A DNA stretch of 29,972 bases from a virus. Below are positions 1,796 through 18,711 of this stretch, in pieces (position 1 is the first letter of the stretch; every line of letters begins with the position of its first letter). A program made the position numbers and the translations under genes. Where the stretch lies: the IMG/VR virus record IMGVR_UViG_3300017697_000063, positions 1 through 29,972 of that record; one strand, 5' to 3'. The notes under the pieces are model-generated. The model was not told where the DNA came from, did not search any database, and was given only the letters and a program-made list of their open reading frames with translations.

Positions 1796-2557
1796 CTATT
1801 TGTACCTTTTAGGACTTAATTTAGCTCTATAGTGTTGTGCTTTAAACATGGCGTTGTGAATGAACTGCGTAACTTTGTTATGCATACTCCTATGGTCGCC
1901 AACTTTAATCTCCATCTGAAAGTCTTCACGTTTGAACGGAATGATCTGTACAATAGGCATACCAATTGGTAATAACACTTCTTCATCAATAGGAGCAGTA
2001 AACCAAGTATTAACGTGTAGCTCATGATAGATATCTGTATCAATAACTCCATTTAACACTTCTAAGTTACCGTGCTTGTTGTAGTGTGGCGCACACACGT
2101 AACAACTATACCCCGGAGGAGTTTTTACCATCCAAGGATTAATTAATTTAAATGTTCCTTCAAACGCATCAGGTGGAAAAGGATAAGCGTCCATCTGTTC
2201 ATGTGGATGTGTTGCCGCACCAAACATATTGCTTTGAGGTCCTGCAGGCATACGCCATACAAGGCCTTGCGGACAATGTTCATTCTTCTCAACACGTTTA
2301 ACTTTATAGTCACTCCATAGTGGAATAACATACCCCATGTTTAATACATCAAGTACTGCTGGACAACTCTTAACTGTTTGATATCCATCTTGGTGACTAC
2401 CGTCAGGAGCCATGCCGTTCTTTTCAGAACCTAGTTCCATATTCTTTGCACCACTTTGCTTTTTAAACCATTCAGGCCAAAACTTAGTTGCTGGTACAGG
2501 TGGCATTGCTTCTGGTAGTTCTTCCCATTTAGTGAAGAAAGTTACATCAATAGTCAT
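1796..2557 (-). CDS. DUF6065-like protein A
   Basis: 253 residues, unknown function. It is a distant paralogue of the gene at 8327-9046: both have a PEW(W/F)K motif early, a K-x-CPA-(V/I)-x-D-x-L-x-x-G segment followed by P-(L/S)-W, a central NPW/SPW motif followed by KTPPG/KETTG, and a late acidic 'G-(V/I)-ID/TE' region followed by P-x-G-x-P/E-x-x-Q-x-(I/V)-P. That pattern recalls the DUF6065 family; the match is from memory. A two-Cys string (YSCYVCAP) is near the middle and the C-terminus is basic. The start ATG overlaps the stop of the mini-DnaE gene (ATGA), indicating translational coupling at the end of the gp62 operon. It ends tail-to-tail with the plus-strand gene. No transmembrane segment seen. 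Confidence 0.7.
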   Translation of the reverse strand: MTIDVTFFTKWEELPEAMPPVPATKFWPEWFKKQSGAKNMELGSEKNGMAPDGSHQDGYQTVKSCPAVLDVLNMGYVIPLWSDYKVKRVEKNEHCPQGLVWRMPAGPQSNMFGAATHPHEQMDAYPFPPDAFEGTFKLINPWMVKTPPGYSCYVCAPHYNKHGNLEVLNGVIDTDIYHELHVNTWFTAPIDEEVLLPIGMPIVQIIPFKREDFQMEIKVGDHRSMHNKVTQFIHNAMFKAQHYRAKLSPKRYK

Positions 2558-3123
2558 TCGTTATCCTCTTTCAGTTGTTCGCACAATAAGTTCATGTGAA
2601 CAACAATAGCATGTGCGTATGCTACTGCGTGGGCTTTCTTAAAGAAGTATTGCCCGTCAGTCGGTTTTACCCAAACTTGTTCGTGTATCTCGTTCCAAGT
2701 TTTGTTTGCTAGATGTCTTTTCGCTGGTCGTATTATCGCTACTGTCGCCGCTAACTCTAATACCGAGCTGGGCTTCAAGACTTTTAATAGTTCGCTGTGC
2801 CCGTTTAGATGAAAGACTTTTTCGCTGAAGTCTTCGTGTTCCAGAAGTTGCCATAAGGGTTCCTTTTCCATTAGTGCGTTTAGGTGTGCTTCATTCTCTA
2901 CCTCAGTGTAAATAGAAACATTGAGGAAGTCTAGTTTAAAGTATCCTCGGTCCTCTGCTGTGTCATGATCTATTGTACTCAATAAATCAATAGGGTTATG
3001 TGGAATCTCTGTTGCGTAGATTCCCGTATTATGTTTTTTACCTGTACCTAACTTTGCAACTCGATGCTTTAGCTTCTCAAGTATTTTCTTTCTATCTGCA
3101 AAGTCAATATCAATATCTGGCAT
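2554..3123 (-). CDS. miniature DNA polymerase III alpha (DnaE)-like protein
   Basis: 189 residues that read as a condensed bacterial replicative polymerase core. Visible motifs, in DnaE order: PDIDIDF at residues 2-8 (E. coli DnaE has PDFDVDF, with catalytic D401 and D403); an HNTGIYATEIPHNPIDLL stretch (29-48) resembling the DnaE H-A-A-G-V-V-I-S region; FKLDFLNVS (62-70), matching KFDFLG with the third catalytic Asp; FHLNGHSELLKVLKPSS (about 104-120) and LAATVAIIRPA, resembling FQLES...LLxxLKPxSxxDLxAxxALYRPG; and YFFKKAHAVAYAHAIVVH near 159-176, matching FxKSHAxAYAxxAY. The PHP domain, most of the fingers, the clamp-binding site and the OB/tau-binding regions of a full DnaE (about 1,100 residues) are absent. 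The gene shares 1 nt with the upstream oxygenase stop (TAATG) and sits in the gp62 clamp-loader operon. Homology is well supported; polymerase activity is unproven. Confidence 0.72.
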   Translation of the reverse strand: MPDIDIDFADRKKILEKLKHRVAKLGTGKKHNTGIYATEIPHNPIDLLSTIDHDTAEDRGYFKLDFLNVSIYTEVENEAHLNALMEKEPLWQLLEHEDFSEKVFHLNGHSELLKVLKPSSVLELAATVAIIRPAKRHLANKTWNEIHEQVWVKPTDGQYFFKKAHAVAYAHAIVVHMNLLCEQLKEDNE

Positions 3124-5296: not shown

Positions 5297-5908
5297 TTAG
5301 CCTTGTTCTTGATCGGCTAGTCTTGTTTTTAAGTATCTTAGTAATACTCCGTATGCTGGTAGGAATACAATTAATCCTACTGCAATTTTTATTACAACTT
5401 GTGAACCGGCAATCTCTACCCAGTTCGCCGCCATATATTCATCTGCTGAGTTGTTAAACGCAACGGCAAAGAATGTGTATGTGTCAATGACGTTTGCAAC
5501 AACTGTCGATAGTGCTGGAGCAATCCACCACTGCTTTGACCAATTCTCTCTAAAGTATTGGAACACGTACACATCTAAGAATGTACCTACGGCATATGCA
5601 GTTGCACTTGCAAAACCAATACGCATGGCTACACTCTCTGGTGCACCTTCAGCTAACACTACGCAGATTGATCCAATAATTGCAAATGGATAAGCCGCCG
5701 CAATAGTTGCTCTCGCAATGCCTTTGCCTAGCATTCTAACTGTTAAGTCAGTTGCTAATACCACAAGCGGGAATGTAAATGCCGCCCAGGTTAATTTAAT
5801 GCCTGCAATTTCTACCGGGATAGAAACTAAAGCATTTGAAATTGTAATGACAACAACATGCAGTAATGCAAGTTTCATCATCATCATCTTGTCAATGTTT
5901 TTGAACAT
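5297..5908 (-). CDS. queuosine precursor-type transporter (VUT family, YhhQ-like)
   Basis: 203 residues, an integral membrane protein with about six hydrophobic segments (roughly 10-30, 36-57, 66-87, 90-112, 128-150, 165-190). The sequence FTFPLVVLATDLTVRMLGKGIARATI (about 45-70), the small-residue-rich third segment and the SNALVSIPVEIAG N-terminal region match the VUT family (PF02592, COG1738). Its E. coli member YhhQ imports 7-cyano-7-deazaguanine (preQ0) or preQ1 for queuosine in tRNA. The family length (about 220) agrees. An AAAGGAAAT Shine-Dalgarno precedes the ATG. Last gene of the methyltransferase/oxygenase/cupin run. No Q-biosynthesis enzyme is visible in this window. Phages that use 7-deazaguanine in DNA or tRNA are known, so salvage of preQ0 or preQ1 from the host is the natural reading, but substrate is inferred. 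Confidence 0.8.
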   Translation of the reverse strand: MFKNIDKMMMMKLALLHVVVITISNALVSIPVEIAGIKLTWAAFTFPLVVLATDLTVRMLGKGIARATIAAAYPFAIIGSICVVLAEGAPESVAMRIGFASATAYAVGTFLDVYVFQYFRENWSKQWWIAPALSTVVANVIDTYTFFAVAFNNSADEYMAANWVEIAGSQVVIKIAVGLIVFLPAYGVLLRYLKTRLADQEQG

Positions 5909-5910
5909 AA

Positions 5911-6276
5911 TTATTTCCTTTTTCTTTGTTCTGTTACGCTCGAGCCGCTTGTTCTTCTTACGATATCATCGTGATTAAATTCAGCCCAGTACAATTCAAA
6001 AGCGACTCCATCTTCTAAACCTTCGAACTGGTGAATCTTGCCGGGCTTCACTTGCGTAAAGTCTCCTGCTTCAAGAATAGTTTCATCAACTAGTCCTTGA
6101 TCATCTTGCCAAACTCGAACAATCATCTTGCCCGATTCAACAAAGAATCCGTTCCATTTATATTCGTGTGCATGTTCACTACATTTGAATCCTGCTTTAT
6201 ATTCAATGCGATGAAACTCTAGTACACCGTTTGCATGTATTAATTCAGTTTGTCCCCAAACTTTTCCTGCTTTCAT
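5911..6276 (-). CDS. cupin-fold protein
   Basis: 121 residues with the start at ATG 6274-6276. An ATG two codons earlier directly abuts the GGAG Shine-Dalgarno, while this one has a 6-nt spacer. A single cupin domain is visible: EHAHEYKWNGFFVESGKMIVRV (motif 1, His-x-His-type ligands around residues 36-38, then Gly) and a second motif with PGKIHQFEGLEDGVAFELYW. The FTQVKPGKIHQFE segment resembles sugar-isomerase or small-molecule-binding cupins rather than a specific enzyme. The C-terminus is basic and unstructured. It sits 2 nt downstream of the oxygenase gene and 2 nt upstream of the transporter, so the three are co-translated. A role in binding or isomerising the substrate of the neighbouring enzymes is inference. 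Confidence 0.8.
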   Translation of the reverse strand: MKAGKVWGQTELIHANGVLEFHRIEYKAGFKCSEHAHEYKWNGFFVESGKMIVRVWQDDQGLVDETILEAGDFTQVKPGKIHQFEGLEDGVAFELYWAEFNHDDIVRRTSGSSVTEQRKRK

Positions 6277-6285
6277 ATTCATCTC

Positions 6286-7773: not shown

Positions 7774-8340
7774 CTATTTCTCCAACACTACAATATATTT
7801 GTTGTTCTCATGTACGCCGCCACGCTTATCTGTTCTTGTCTTTTCAAAGAACTCGTGATGTACAATTTTTACACCTGGCATACATTTTTCAATTCTTTCT
7901 TTCCACCAACCCGGATTCTCTACAATTAAATGTGCATTACGTCCGTCTGGTAAAAACTTTTTAGCTGGGCTAGTAGCAATAATAAGAAATGCATTTTTGT
8001 TAAACAGTTCGTGAATATCTTTTAGTACATCATCTAAAAAGAAAGGCTCAATATGTTCTAGTACGTCTGTACTAATAAGCATATCAGCAGGCTTCTTGTT
8101 ATCGGGAATATTAAAGTCTGGCATCCCTGGATCCCAACCAATTGCACTAATCTCTGGATACGATTCTTTGAGTGCTAATACAACTCCACCTTTGCCGCAA
8201 CCATAGTCTAAAATAGACTGAGGTTTAAATTCTTTAATCCATTTTTCGATAGCCTTTAATCCTTTAGCGTCACCGAAAGATGCTTTCTCGCTGTGTAGTT
8301 GTGCTAACTGGCGAGCGTATTCTTCACTAATTGTTTTCAT
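7774..8340 (-). CDS. class I SAM-dependent methyltransferase
   Basis: 188 residues with a textbook methyltransferase core: motif I ILDYGCGKGG (residues 43-52) binding SAM, an acidic motif II in AIGWDPGMPDF, and motif IV STDVLEHIEPFFLDDVL (90-105), the VLEH type found in Methyltransf_23/UbiG-like enzymes. Motif V is NAFLIIATSPAKKFLPDGRNAHL. The late segment WWKERIEKCMPGVKIVHHEFF fits the usual C-terminal beta-hairpin. A AAAGGAAAT Shine-Dalgarno precedes the start, which overlaps the DUF6065-like gene by 14 nt. The substrate is not evident; it pairs with the second methyltransferase downstream. Confidence 0.85.
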   Translation of the reverse strand: MKTISEEYARQLAQLHSEKASFGDAKGLKAIEKWIKEFKPQSILDYGCGKGGVVLALKESYPEISAIGWDPGMPDFNIPDNKKPADMLISTDVLEHIEPFFLDDVLKDIHELFNKNAFLIIATSPAKKFLPDGRNAHLIVENPGWWKERIEKCMPGVKIVHHEFFEKTRTDKRGGVHENNKYIVVLEK

Positions 8341-9046
8341 CTAATTTCCTTTGCTTCCCAACATTACGTATCGATTTCATATAACTTCCTACGGAGGATA
8401 TATTAACTGTATTTAAATTCTGCATAGTTTGGTTGTCTGTTAAGTGGACGTTAAGTTTTATTGGTTTGTCACTCATTGGTACTAGTTGTAACCAAGGTTC
8501 GCCAACTTCAATTTTAACTTCACTACCGTATGGAACCATAATGTTATTTAAGATACTATGTTGATGTTTATACTCTGTGATACCAGGTACGCCCCAGTAT
8601 GCTAATGGATTCTTTGTGTGCCAATCAGGTTTGATCCATACCCATTTTACACCTGTAGTTTCTTTCATAAACCACGGTGAGCCTAACTTAACATGTGCAA
8701 GTCCAGGCTTGTGAAAATCAAAGTCACGTTCGTCGTGTGGCAATGCAGGAATAAAGTCAGGAAAGACTCTTACTTCTTTCTCTCCTCCAATACCTACACG
8801 CATATGTAGTTCACACCAACTAGGGAAAATAATTCCTGCCTTTAATATATCATTAATAGCAGGACATTGTTTCATTGAACTTATCGGCAAGTCGTCATAG
8901 AACTCTTGGTGCGTAGGTCTACTTGCTGGTAAACTTTTCCACCATTCGGGTATATACTTCTTTGCCAACTGCGGCTTACATTGATCGTAAGCGTATTGTT
9001 GGTTTGTATATACGTCTACTGTTATACTGTTAGATAAGAATCCCAT
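8327..9046 (-). CDS. DUF6065-like protein B
   Basis: 239 residues with ATG at 9044-9046 (MGFLSNSITV); a GTG at 9061 would add five residues but has no ribosome binding site. Paralogue of the gene at 1796-2557: shared features are PEWWK near residue 36, MKQCPAINDILKAG followed by FPSWCE, a GSPWFMKETTGV motif with a run of aromatic residues (KWVWIKPDW), and VPYGSEVKIEVGEPWLQLVPM. The expected DUF6065-like 'G-V-I-D-T-D' is less clear here (VPGITEYKHQHSILNN). The family name is from memory and its function is unknown. It overlaps the unknown gene at 9030 by 17 nt and the methyltransferase by 14 nt, so it belongs to the same operon. Confidence 0.7.
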   Translation of the reverse strand: MGFLSNSITVDVYTNQQYAYDQCKPQLAKKYIPEWWKSLPASRPTHQEFYDDLPISSMKQCPAINDILKAGIIFPSWCELHMRVGIGGEKEVRVFPDFIPALPHDERDFDFHKPGLAHVKLGSPWFMKETTGVKWVWIKPDWHTKNPLAYWGVPGITEYKHQHSILNNIMVPYGSEVKIEVGEPWLQLVPMSDKPIKLNVHLTDNQTMQNLNTVNISSVGSYMKSIRNVGKQRKLDENN

Positions 9047-9536
9047 AATCAATAACTTCACTTTGTCTACTAATGTCTTTTACAAACCACGCACATTGCG
9101 GGTTGTCACCATCAGTTAAAGGTACACCTAATAGTTGTCCGTTTTTCATTTTAGGGAAATACCATTTTACATCATTGTAAAAATTAGTAATCTTTACTTC
9201 TCCCCAATTCATCATACTACTAGTTAACGGATTAAACAAGAACGCTTCAAAGCCTCTATCGTTTAAACTTGTTAATGGTAGTACTTCAATGTCTCCAGCA
9301 CCGCCGCTGTCACCTACTGCTAAATGCCAATCGATAGGCATAGTTATTTCATGCCCTCCAATTTCCATTACCATTGCTGGTGAGTTAAATGATTCTAAAA
9401 AAATCAAAGGAATATAAAAGAAGTCAGGCTCTTTTGGATTACTATTATCCAATACTGAAAATCTAATGTCATCTGTTAATTCGTCCGGAAGGTGTTCGAG
9501 TTTGTAACATTTGTTTTCTAATGTTAATATTCTCAT
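9030..9536 (-). CDS. conserved marine T4-like phage protein, unknown function
   Basis: 168 residues, mixed alpha/beta, acidic, no transmembrane segment. Recognisable strings are MRILTLENKCYKLEHLP, GGHEITMPIDWHLAVGD, LEVLPLTSLNDRGFEAFLFNPLTS and GEVKITNFYNDVKWYFPKMKNGQLL. The protein looks like a compact beta-rich fold. I remember similar sequences as conserved hypotheticals in marine T4-like phages, and I know of no assigned function. The ATG at 9534-9536 has an AGAGGA ribosome binding site. It lies 21 nt after UvsW and overlaps the DUF6065-like gene, so it is transcribed with the helicase operon. Confidence 0.72.
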   Translation of the reverse strand: MRILTLENKCYKLEHLPDELTDDIRFSVLDNSNPKEPDFFYIPLIFLESFNSPAMVMEIGGHEITMPIDWHLAVGDSGGAGDIEVLPLTSLNDRGFEAFLFNPLTSSMMNWGEVKITNFYNDVKWYFPKMKNGQLLGVPLTDGDNPQCAWFVKDISRQSEVIDYGILI

Positions 9537-17298: not shown

Positions 17299-18111
17299 CT
17301 ATACTGGCGATCCTTCATGCCACTGATCATACTCGTAATCTGGAACGCCACGTCTTTCAATATCTTCTTCTATACATTGTTCGCCACGTTGTATTTCTAG
17401 TATATGTGCATTTACTTTACCAGGGTTACTTGGTAAGTGCCAAACTTCTTTATTAATTTCATATGGCATACCTTGAGGATTTAAGTAAACAATCTCTTGT
17501 CTGCCTTCCCATTCGGTTACCATTTTAACTTCGCCTTCAAGTATGTTCCATTGTTCACTACGTTTAAAATGTTTTTGATCGCTTAGACGTTTGCCTGGAT
17601 ATATTACAAGCTCTTTTACTTTGTAACCTTGTTTGGGTTTGTCATCTAGTACACGCCAATAACCCCAATCACGTTCTGTCTTTTGTGTCTTCCACTCGTC
17701 TAGTATCCAACTGCTACTATTCATTTTGTTTTCTCCACCTACCCCAAATTCAAAATGGACTTGAGGATGGTCGCCGTATATTTTGTACTCTGGAGTTGTT
17801 GTATTAGTTCTGTCACCGCCATTAGCAAAAATAACTTTTCCTACTTCGGTTGACATGGTATGGAATATTGCATGACATGCTGAATCGTCTTCATCGTCAA
17901 AGCCTATAACTTTGTCTACGATAGCAAGTTCTTTTATGATTGCAAGTCTTTCTTTAAAGGACATGAAAGGCCGACCCTTTTTTCGAGTCAGCCATTCATC
18001 TGAGTTTACTGCAACAATTAGTTTATCACCTAATTGTTTTGCGGCCTTGAAGTATTCAATATGGCCGGAATGTAAGGGATCGAACCCACCTGTCACTAGT
18101 ACGTTTATCAT
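17299..18111 (-). CDS. cytidylyltransferase-cupin fusion protein
   Basis: 270 residues with two domains. Residues 1-140 are a cytidylyltransferase (nucleotidyl transferase of the RfaE/TagD type): TGGFDPLHSGH (7-17) with the HxGH motif (14-17), AVNSDEWLTRKKGRPF and an ERxxII motif (MSFKERLAIIK), which activates a sugar or polyol phosphate with CTP or ATP. Residues about 149-245 are a cupin of the type II mannose-6-phosphate isomerase kind: DWGYWRVLDD, VKELVIYPGKRLSDQKHFKRSEQWNILEG (H181, E186) and EVWHLPS (H225). No Shine-Dalgarno is present; a TTTAAATA late-like box ends 5 nt before the ATG. This is an activation enzyme with a built-in small-molecule domain. RfaE-type is a guess; CDP-glycerol or ADP-heptose are alternatives. 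Confidence 0.82.
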   Translation of the reverse strand: MINVLVTGGFDPLHSGHIEYFKAAKQLGDKLIVAVNSDEWLTRKKGRPFMSFKERLAIIKELAIVDKVIGFDDEDDSACHAIFHTMSTEVGKVIFANGGDRTNTTTPEYKIYGDHPQVHFEFGVGGENKMNSSSWILDEWKTQKTERDWGYWRVLDDKPKQGYKVKELVIYPGKRLSDQKHFKRSEQWNILEGEVKMVTEWEGRQEIVYLNPQGMPYEINKEVWHLPSNPGKVNAHILEIQRGEQCIEEDIERRGVPDYEYDQWHEGSPV

Positions 18112-18116
18112 ACTAG

Positions 18117-18124
18117 TATTTAAA
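18117..18124 (-). promoter_or_regulatory. possible late promoter box (TTTAAATA)
   Basis: Minus-strand TTTAAATA, one mismatch from TATAAATA, ends 5 nt before the cytidylyltransferase ATG, which has no Shine-Dalgarno. The spacing equals that at 1404, 23565 and 25163. The AT-rich context makes chance likely, so confidence is low. Confidence 0.3.
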
Positions 18125-18126
18125 CT

Positions 18127-18711
18127 TTAACGGTTTAGTGTTTCGATATACTGGATTACATTTTCAGGTGTTGATTCAACATACGGATCTTGATCGTCTC
18201 CGCAGTTGTTGTAACCTTCTTCAATGAAACTTTCATTAACAGTCATGTTGTCAACATACATTGCATATCTCCATGATCTGTTTGCAAAGCCTAAATGTTG
18301 TTTATTACAAAGCATACCAATAGCATATGTAAAGTCTGCATTACCATCTGCTAGTAATTTAACGTTAGTACATCCTAGTTCTTTAGCCCATGCATTCATT
18401 ACAAATGCATCGTTAACACTTACACAATATACTTCATCTACGCCTTGTGCTTTAAACTGTTCATACATTTTTTCAAATGTTGGTAGTTGTTCTGAACTAC
18501 ACGTTGGTGTAAATGCTCCGGGCAAACCAAAGATGACAACTTTTTTATTTGCAAAAAGTTCTGCACTAGTTTTCTTTACCCAACAGCCACCAATGGCACA
18601 TCCGCCATCATCACCAACTTCATCTCCTTCACGTAAAACGAAAGTGACATCTCCTGGAATCTTATCCCATTTTTCAATTATTTTCTTTTCACCTGGTAAT
18701 TGGTAACTCAT
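18127..18711 (-). CDS. peroxiredoxin (Prx5-like)
   Basis: 194 residues. The peroxidatic site PGAFTPTC (64-71) matches the Prx consensus PxxxTxxC, with C71 as catalytic cysteine; NRSWRYAMYVDN supplies the conserved Arg (R148) of Prx5-type enzymes. The remainder (ANKKVVIFGLPGAFTPTC, YEQFKAQGVDEVYCVSVNDAFVMNAWAKEL) follows the thioredoxin fold of AhpC/TSA-Prx5 hybrids. A distal C170 (GYNNCGDDQDPYVES) could be the resolving cysteine. It would remove peroxides or peroxynitrite in the infected cell, using thioredoxin or glutaredoxin. The gene lies between uvsY and the glycan run, 20 nt after uvsY. Such genes are auxiliary metabolic genes; no redox partner is visible nearby. A strong ribosome binding site is missing. 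Confidence 0.9.
   Translation of the reverse strand: MSYQLPGEKKIIEKWDKIPGDVTFVLREGDEVGDDGGCAIGGCWVKKTSAELFANKKVVIFGLPGAFTPTCSSEQLPTFEKMYEQFKAQGVDEVYCVSVNDAFVMNAWAKELGCTNVKLLADGNADFTYAIGMLCNKQHLGFANRSWRYAMYVDNMTVNESFIEEGYNNCGDDQDPYVESTPENVIQYIETLNR

Follow-up and report, generated by a model that had tools for sequence, protein, structure and literature searches.

The window analyzed here is an entire deposited record of 29,972 bp and represents part of an incomplete phage genome. From 5908 to 5297, on the minus strand, it carries a gene for a predicted transporter of the QPTR/COG1738 family with an ATG start and a product of 203 aa; a preliminary description had located this ORF without giving its strand, and we find it to be a real gene that reads on the minus strand. 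The gene begins 2 bp past the end of an upstream ORF, also on the minus strand (5911-6282), encoding a small cupin protein of 123 aa that matches Cupin_2 with 35.8 bits, over a cut-off of 27.2. Genes for a UvsW-type helicase, a gp32-type single-stranded DNA-binding protein, and a terminase are present in the window as well, and the earlier description of the phage as T4-like fits these neighbors. None of the preQ0/Q-pathway genes tested was found within the 29,972-bp window, and the statement that it holds no Q-pathway enzymes was right for those genes.

Several other ORFs on the minus strand of the window deserve mention. The product of 2554-3123 (189 aa) matches the PHROGs DNA polymerase family phrog_11778 (2e-58) and may come from a split or partial polymerase gene. 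The proteins encoded at 1796-2557, weakly DUF6065-like (21.6 bits, cut-off 26.6), and at 8327-9061, which matches phrog_7084 (1e-19), carry no functional assignment, and their N-termini look alike by eye. Positions 17299-18711 encode a fusion of a cytidylyltransferase and a mannose-6-phosphate isomerase C-terminal domain, beside a peroxiredoxin-family gene.

The transporter passes the cut-offs of Pfam PF02592 Vut_1 (89.3 bits, cut-off 27.2) and of TIGR00697, the queuosine precursor transporter model (111.7 bits, cut-off 50.95), and shares 44% identity with Escherichia coli YhhQ across 201 aa (E 6e-52). Thirty-eight residues are invariant in a 17-sequence alignment that includes YhhQ and QPTRs of isolates and other phages. 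The cut-off of 252 for NF008406, the preQ0/preQ1 transporter equivalog, was missed with 194.2 bits, while the QPTR of Vibrio phage 2.275.O, which served as a positive control, scored 320.2 bits. Because the equivalog cut-off was missed, we file the protein under QPTR/COG1738 and not as a YhhQ ortholog; the family named in the earlier description, VUT/YhhQ-type, holds by these profile matches. Six transmembrane segments, a feature of the QPTR family in the accessible text of PMC5372724, appear here as a prediction, namely, as six long helices in an AlphaFold model with a pLDDT of 86.7. The top PDB matches of this model are mostly ECF S-components of varied vitamins, all of them weak and none below E 0.07, and a sequence search against solved structures gave no relevant match for the transporter.

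A contig scan found 184 relatives of the QPTR in viral contigs, and dN/dS of the window gene against 12 relatives was 0.05 to 0.19, with dS often around 1 or above. The gene is therefore no chance ORF, and it is under purifying selection. Our locus counts rest on the best 80 of the 184 relatives, of which 46 have uvsW in the same locus and 34 do not. The cupin gene is found in 44 of the 46 uvsW-type loci, adjoining the QPTR in most. When 80 loci were fetched with the cupin instead, 34 held a QPTR, which belonged to the window subtype in 22 loci and, in 12, to a second one (48 to 51% identity) located in the same region; 46 held none, some of these being ended early by contig edges. This count led us to reject a dedicated two-gene unit of cupin and QPTR; the cupin is a neighbor and a position marker of the transporter and no exclusive partner. 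The second subtype was also seen directly behind FolE in G071 and G085 (L364:17609-18268 and L365:8643-9329), where it is 50 to 54% identical to the window QPTR.

The slot thus described is compatible with a mobile passenger gene that has little or no effect on infection. Within the cupin set, the closest relatives without a QPTR at the slot (L269, L270, L272, L275, and L276) have flanking genes up to 98% identical, and two subtypes occupy one region. Between uvsW-locus phages, moreover, the QPTR is conserved more than uvsW (84% versus 67% for L014), and conservation above that of the neighboring genes is expected under recent exchange. The low dN/dS at dS values often near or above 1 and the intact state of the gene in many divergent phages argue against such a passenger, and we consider this explanation very improbable.

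In a small tree built from the 17-sequence alignment, the marine phage QPTRs branch apart from E. coli YhhQ. As for a cellular origin of the QPTR, one scan of genome contigs returned two relatives, an alphaproteobacterial gene with 37% identity and a gene with 82% identity on a 7.6-kb contig of a Pelagibacter MAG, whose gene content is phage-like in look; that Pelagibacter is the host of the window phage is only a hint.

Genes of the preQ0 pathway were searched in 50 QPTR-bearing viral records, mostly the longest of the 80 best and including near duplicates (e.g., G027/G030). The co-occurrence counts are raw and ignore kinship between records, and the ORF picker for large records was crude, some short or overlapping genes being dropped. 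FolE was present in 21 of the 50 records, a protein of 485 to 560 aa with a predicted tRNA-guanine transglycosylase (TGT) fold also in 21, and a QueE-like protein above 90 bits in 20 (25 at E ≤0.001, including weak radical SAM cross-matches); the same 20 records contain all three. QueC was found in two records, both times weakly, QueD (PF01242) in one, and QueF above its cut-off in none of the 50; a sub-threshold QueF candidate in G037 with two in-frame stops was set aside. The Pfam TGT model PF01702 was likewise passed in none of the 50, although 21 hold the TGT-fold protein. Many of the remaining 30 records are short fragments, yet G009 (116 kb) and G023 (230 kb) are also among them, and in G023 the QPTR is accompanied by neither FolE nor the TGT-fold protein nor a strong QueE match. 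The preliminary description had the transporter serving either host enzymes or enzymes encoded elsewhere in the genome and had named queC/D/E/F, folE, tgt, and dpdA-like genes as the ones to look for. The 20 records with FolE, QueE-like, and TGT-fold genes favor the second option, as does the gene content of the nearest large relative, described below.

In the large records, the QueE-like gene and the gene for the 485- to 560-aa protein, which bears a DSGGFQ motif, lie close to FolE. Against phrog_2076, "QueE-like radical SAM domain," the QueE-like protein gave an E value of 1.3e-52, and it stays below all NCBIfam QueE cut-offs; Vibrio phage nt-1 also has a QueE-like gene, which lies apart from its own preQ0 cluster. 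For both reasons, we treat QueE activity of this protein as putative. In each of five records (G023, G027, G037, G033, and G035), weak radical SAM matches number six to ten, which is above the expectation for a phage. Divergent, mutually related PP-loop proteins are encoded at L083:1039-1698, L176:3677-4375 (minus), and L177:3608-4471, and the first of them has a weak QueC match through a C-terminal cysteine region.

The QPTR not only co-occurs with pathway genes in relatives but also clusters with them. Flanks of up to 10 kb hold at least one gene for FolE, the QueE-like protein, the TGT-fold protein, or a phosphoribosyltransferase in 26 of the 34 loci without uvsW and all four in 16, with FolE abutting the QPTR in L038, L039, L046, and L047, whereas such a gene lies nearby in only 1 of the 46 uvsW loci. 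Eight loci without uvsW have none of the four in their flanks: L007, L011, and L018, which have other genes in common with the window, are truncated on one side close to the QPTR, L079 comes from G048, which has pathway genes elsewhere, and the others are L041, L043, L049, and L053. Two genomes of the window type, G006 and G037, also carry pathway genes elsewhere. The arrangement known from Vid5 and EC151, with the QPTR inside a preQ0 gene cluster, is thus absent from the window and present in relatives of the other layout.

The phosphoribosyltransferase scores 41.7 bits against Pribosyltran (cut-off 26.3); among NCBIfam models, xanthine/hypoxanthine types come closest to it, with scores under their cut-offs. 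It stands beside FolE, QueE-like, and TGT-fold genes in 22 of the 34 loci without uvsW; examples of this recurring neighborhood are L367:9152-9700 (minus), L174:8235-8699, and L261 gp163. Weak homologs exist in Campylobacter phage CP220 and in PA5oct, in the latter between the TGT-fold and QueE-like genes. One idea is that the enzyme could recycle guanine freed by base exchange or activate an imported base.

In G027 and G044, the QPTR lies among genes for adenylosuccinate synthetase, phosphoribosyltransferases, an IMPDH-family protein, and a PnrA-like protein. Together with the missed NF008406 cut-off and the varied vitamin specificities of the best, if weak, structural matches, this setting would suit a transporter that now carries a different substrate, perhaps a purine base or some other small metabolite, and aids nucleotide supply and not 7-deazaguanine chemistry. 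We judge such a change of substrate unlikely, since the TIGR00697 cut-off is well exceeded and the invariant residues are common to YhhQ and the QPTRs of isolates, and the purine genes could equally supply GTP to FolE. As an observation on the same region of G027 (170000-189500, our locus L171), the QPTR there sits among purine and SAM genes, including those for adenylosuccinate synthetase, an APRT-like protein, and a PnrA-like substrate-binding protein, and one protein reads, by eye only, like an S-adenosylmethionine synthetase.

The large relative nearest to the window, G052 (268 kb), matches 33 of the 40 window genes, with TerL, UvsX, and gp32 being 96.4%, 96.6%, and 96.0% identical, respectively. 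It carries genes for the QueE-like protein (189974-190873), FolE (191246-191929), the phosphoribosyltransferase (194151-194699), the TGT-fold protein (199209-200741), and a PTPS/QueD-like protein (255048-255497; 46.1 bits, cut-off 22.4), and it contains no match to Vut_1 and hence no QPTR. Since G052 has FolE, QueD-like, QueE-like, and TGT-fold genes without the transporter, the window phage's kind possesses the pathway, and the QPTR is an optional add-on.

A second set of 49 mostly long records was drawn from 160 loci of the cupin and the TGT-fold protein. Fifteen contain the TGT-fold protein, 13 of these FolE, and only one (G071) a QPTR; because 14 of the 15 were fetched by the TGT-fold protein itself, they form a non-random sample. 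Substitution of the QPTR for a missing QueD found no support: beyond the single QueD among the 50 QPTR records, QueD occurs in 6 of the 49 records of this set, one with a QPTR (G071) and five without, and the large QPTR-less records G064, G065, and G066 are also without QueD. Rfam searches for a preQ1 riboswitch in seven sources returned no match of any kind at the gathering threshold.

The TGT-fold protein may be more interesting than the transporter. One member lies at L170:11881-13338 (minus), with further members in L171, L172, L173, L085, and L261, and viral contigs hold at least 597 coding stretches of the family. Two members scanned gave no match to Pfam, PHROGs, or NCBIfam models, and a sequence search against solved structures gave no relevant match either. 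A tblastn search found the gene in 13 records of isolates, annotated "hypothetical protein," namely, 11 Pseudomonas phages (the PA5oct/Paride group among them), Sinorhizobium phage Phosso, and Vibrio phage 2.275.O. An AlphaFold model computed from 41 sequences reached a pLDDT of 88.1 and a pTM of 0.89; its nine best Foldseek matches in the PDB are all TGT (E 3.2e-6 to 1.7e-4), and VIA-align gave TGT for all of the 50 matches listed, with Z scores of 18.0 to 19.4. The family has, by this modeled structure, a TGT fold. That these phages have no transglycosylase at all, as was first hinted by the empty Pfam TGT search, was overturned by the motif scan and these fold searches.

The motifs DSGGFQ and FDC are invariant in the family alignment (A3), and hhalign placed the family's FDCASPFLATANG on FDCVMPTRNARNG of E. 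coli TGT at E 0.0034 but with a probability of 9.5%, a weak match, the reference value for the unrelated QueA being E 0.18. The aligned aspartates of E. coli TGT are presumably catalytic. DpdA2 of phage nt-1 gave only short blastp pieces, an hhalign E value of 0.15, and 7.0 bits (E 0.082) in hmmsearch, and Vid5 DpdA gave an hhalign E value of 0.19. These comparisons gave no significant match of the family to DpdA1 or DpdA2 (Vid5/nt-1 type); DpdA3 and DpdA4 are reportedly from work by Cui in 2023, and the family may coincide with such a recently named subfamily. We rejected identity with the system of Campylobacter phage CP220, with its reportedly full 7-deazaguanine replacement, since nothing significantly homologous to the TGT-fold protein came up in the six-frame ORFs of that phage.

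A TGT fold leaves two targets to be weighed, DNA and tRNA. The transporter could serve tRNA queuosine by supplying preQ0 or preQ1 to the host TGT, which would place queuosine in GUN-anticodon tRNAs of the host or the phage during infection, and salvage of queuosine precursors is the known role of the QPTR family in the accessible text of PMC5372724. G048 (374 kb) has tRNA genes for His(GTG), Asn(GTT), Asp(GTC), and Tyr(GTA). It is the only one of six large records scanned with GUN anticodons; in G006 and G037 the scan gave no tRNA gene at all, and in G023, G027, and G052 no GUN anticodon turned up. This count of one in six led us to reject the QPTR as a support for phage tRNAs. In relatives, moreover, the QPTR clusters with the phage's own TGT-fold protein, although tRNA is also a possible target of that protein. 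We therefore regard service to tRNA queuosine as an improbable role. The preliminary description had offered tRNA queuosine and protective 7-deazaguanine in DNA side by side, and the scarcity of GUN tRNAs makes the former the less favored of the two.

The explanation that we prefer, with confidence somewhat better than even, is that the QPTR imports preQ0 or preQ1 and thereby feeds a phage transglycosylase that modifies and protects phage DNA, the pathway being encoded outside the window. The window gene would give rise to an inner-membrane importer, which during infection would raise the 7-deazaguanine pool of the host cell, most likely with preQ0 and/or preQ1, in the manner of E. coli YhhQ. 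FolE, the QueE-like radical SAM enzyme, and the TGT-fold transglycosylase are most likely encoded beyond the window in the phage's own genome, as in the nearest relatives. The transglycosylase would swap guanine for 7-deazaguanine in DNA, probably that of the phage, and the modified DNA would be shielded from host restriction. Import would supplement a phage pathway that usually has no recognizable QueC. Our data show that the protein belongs to the family, that its gene is under purifying selection, that pathway genes co-occur and cluster with the QPTR in relatives, and that the TGT fold is predicted; the direction and substrate of transport, the presence of the pathway in this genome, DNA instead of tRNA as the target, and protection are inferences. 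Against this explanation stand the lack of any pathway gene in the window, whose genome is incomplete, the dispensability of the QPTR to the pathway as seen in G052, the QPTR of G023 without pathway genes, the rarity of QueC and QueD, the missed NF008406 cut-off, the negative riboswitch searches, and the possibility that the TGT-fold family acts on tRNA, its sequence likeness to TGT being weak and its likeness to the phage DpdA proteins already known being marginal at best.

A broader and more tentative proposal, to which we give somewhat less than an even chance, is that a large group of ocean phages has an unannotated 7-deazaguanine DNA modification system. It would consist of a TGT-fold family unlike DpdA1/DpdA2, FolE, a QueE-like protein in which an insertion separates the cysteines, and a phosphoribosyltransferase, which may recycle guanine to GMP or activate 7-deazaguanine; the QPTR would be an interchangeable import module, with at least two subtypes gained in one slot. 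If this is true, many uncultured ocean phages shield their DNA with 7-deazaguanines by means of a transglycosylase without a name in current family libraries, and an importer of their own lets some of them draw precursors from the surroundings of the host during infection. The question could then be put to phages that are already in culture, since the TGT-fold family has members in the Pseudomonas PA5oct/Paride group and in Vibrio phage 2.275.O.

Phage QPTRs as such are of a known kind; new are the optional slot in T4-like ocean phages and relatives with unannotated TGT-fold, FolE, and QueE-like genes. As far as the accessible parts of these papers go, a preQ0/preQ1 transporter was reported as the first in phages for Pantoea phage Vid5 in 2018 (PMC6266253), Hutinet in 2019 mentioned that some phages have YhhQ homologs, uncorrelated with any group (PMC6884629), and such transporters are named for Enterobacter phage EC151 (PMC8310023) and in a figure legend of PMC7472734. 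A precedent for 7-deazaguanine in phage DNA is a vibrio phage with FolE, QueD, QueE, QueC, DpdA, and QueF, which shows, in the available text, ∼15% dG modification consistent with dPreQ1 (PMC12028318). The titles and abstracts searched, mostly of papers free of subscription, contained no report that places a QPTR in the marine T4-like group or that describes the unnamed TGT-fold family.

Compared with DpdA/DpdA2 modification of phage DNA, as the accessible text of PMC6884629 presents it, the relatives of the window phage likewise encode a TGT-superfamily protein alongside FolE and QueE-type genes in one genome, but their TGT-fold protein has no significant match to nt-1 DpdA2 or Vid5 DpdA, and QueC is mostly missing. 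E. coli YhhQ, which has the family residues in common with the window QPTR at the identity given above, is a cellular gene, and our small tree puts the marine phage proteins on a branch of their own. Gene maps place the QPTR inside preQ0 gene clusters in three isolates, Vid5, Providencia phage PSTCR7, and Vibrio phage 2.275.O. Vid5, PSTCR7, and EC151, by their available descriptions, resemble the window in having a phage Vut_1/COG1738 protein tied to 7-deazaguanine genes, with preQ0/preQ1 salvage as its proposed role; their transporters lie in complete or nearly complete preQ0 clusters of siphophages, whereas the window copy, 36 to 37% identical to those of Vid5 and PSTCR7, is away from pathway genes in a T4-like phage. 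Vibrio phage 2.275.O differs from the window phage in being a jumbo phage, in having QueF and QueC adjoin its QPTR, and in passing the NF008406 cut-off, but it resembles the window group in that its QPTR is 42% identical to that of the window and a member of the TGT-fold family is encoded in the same phage.
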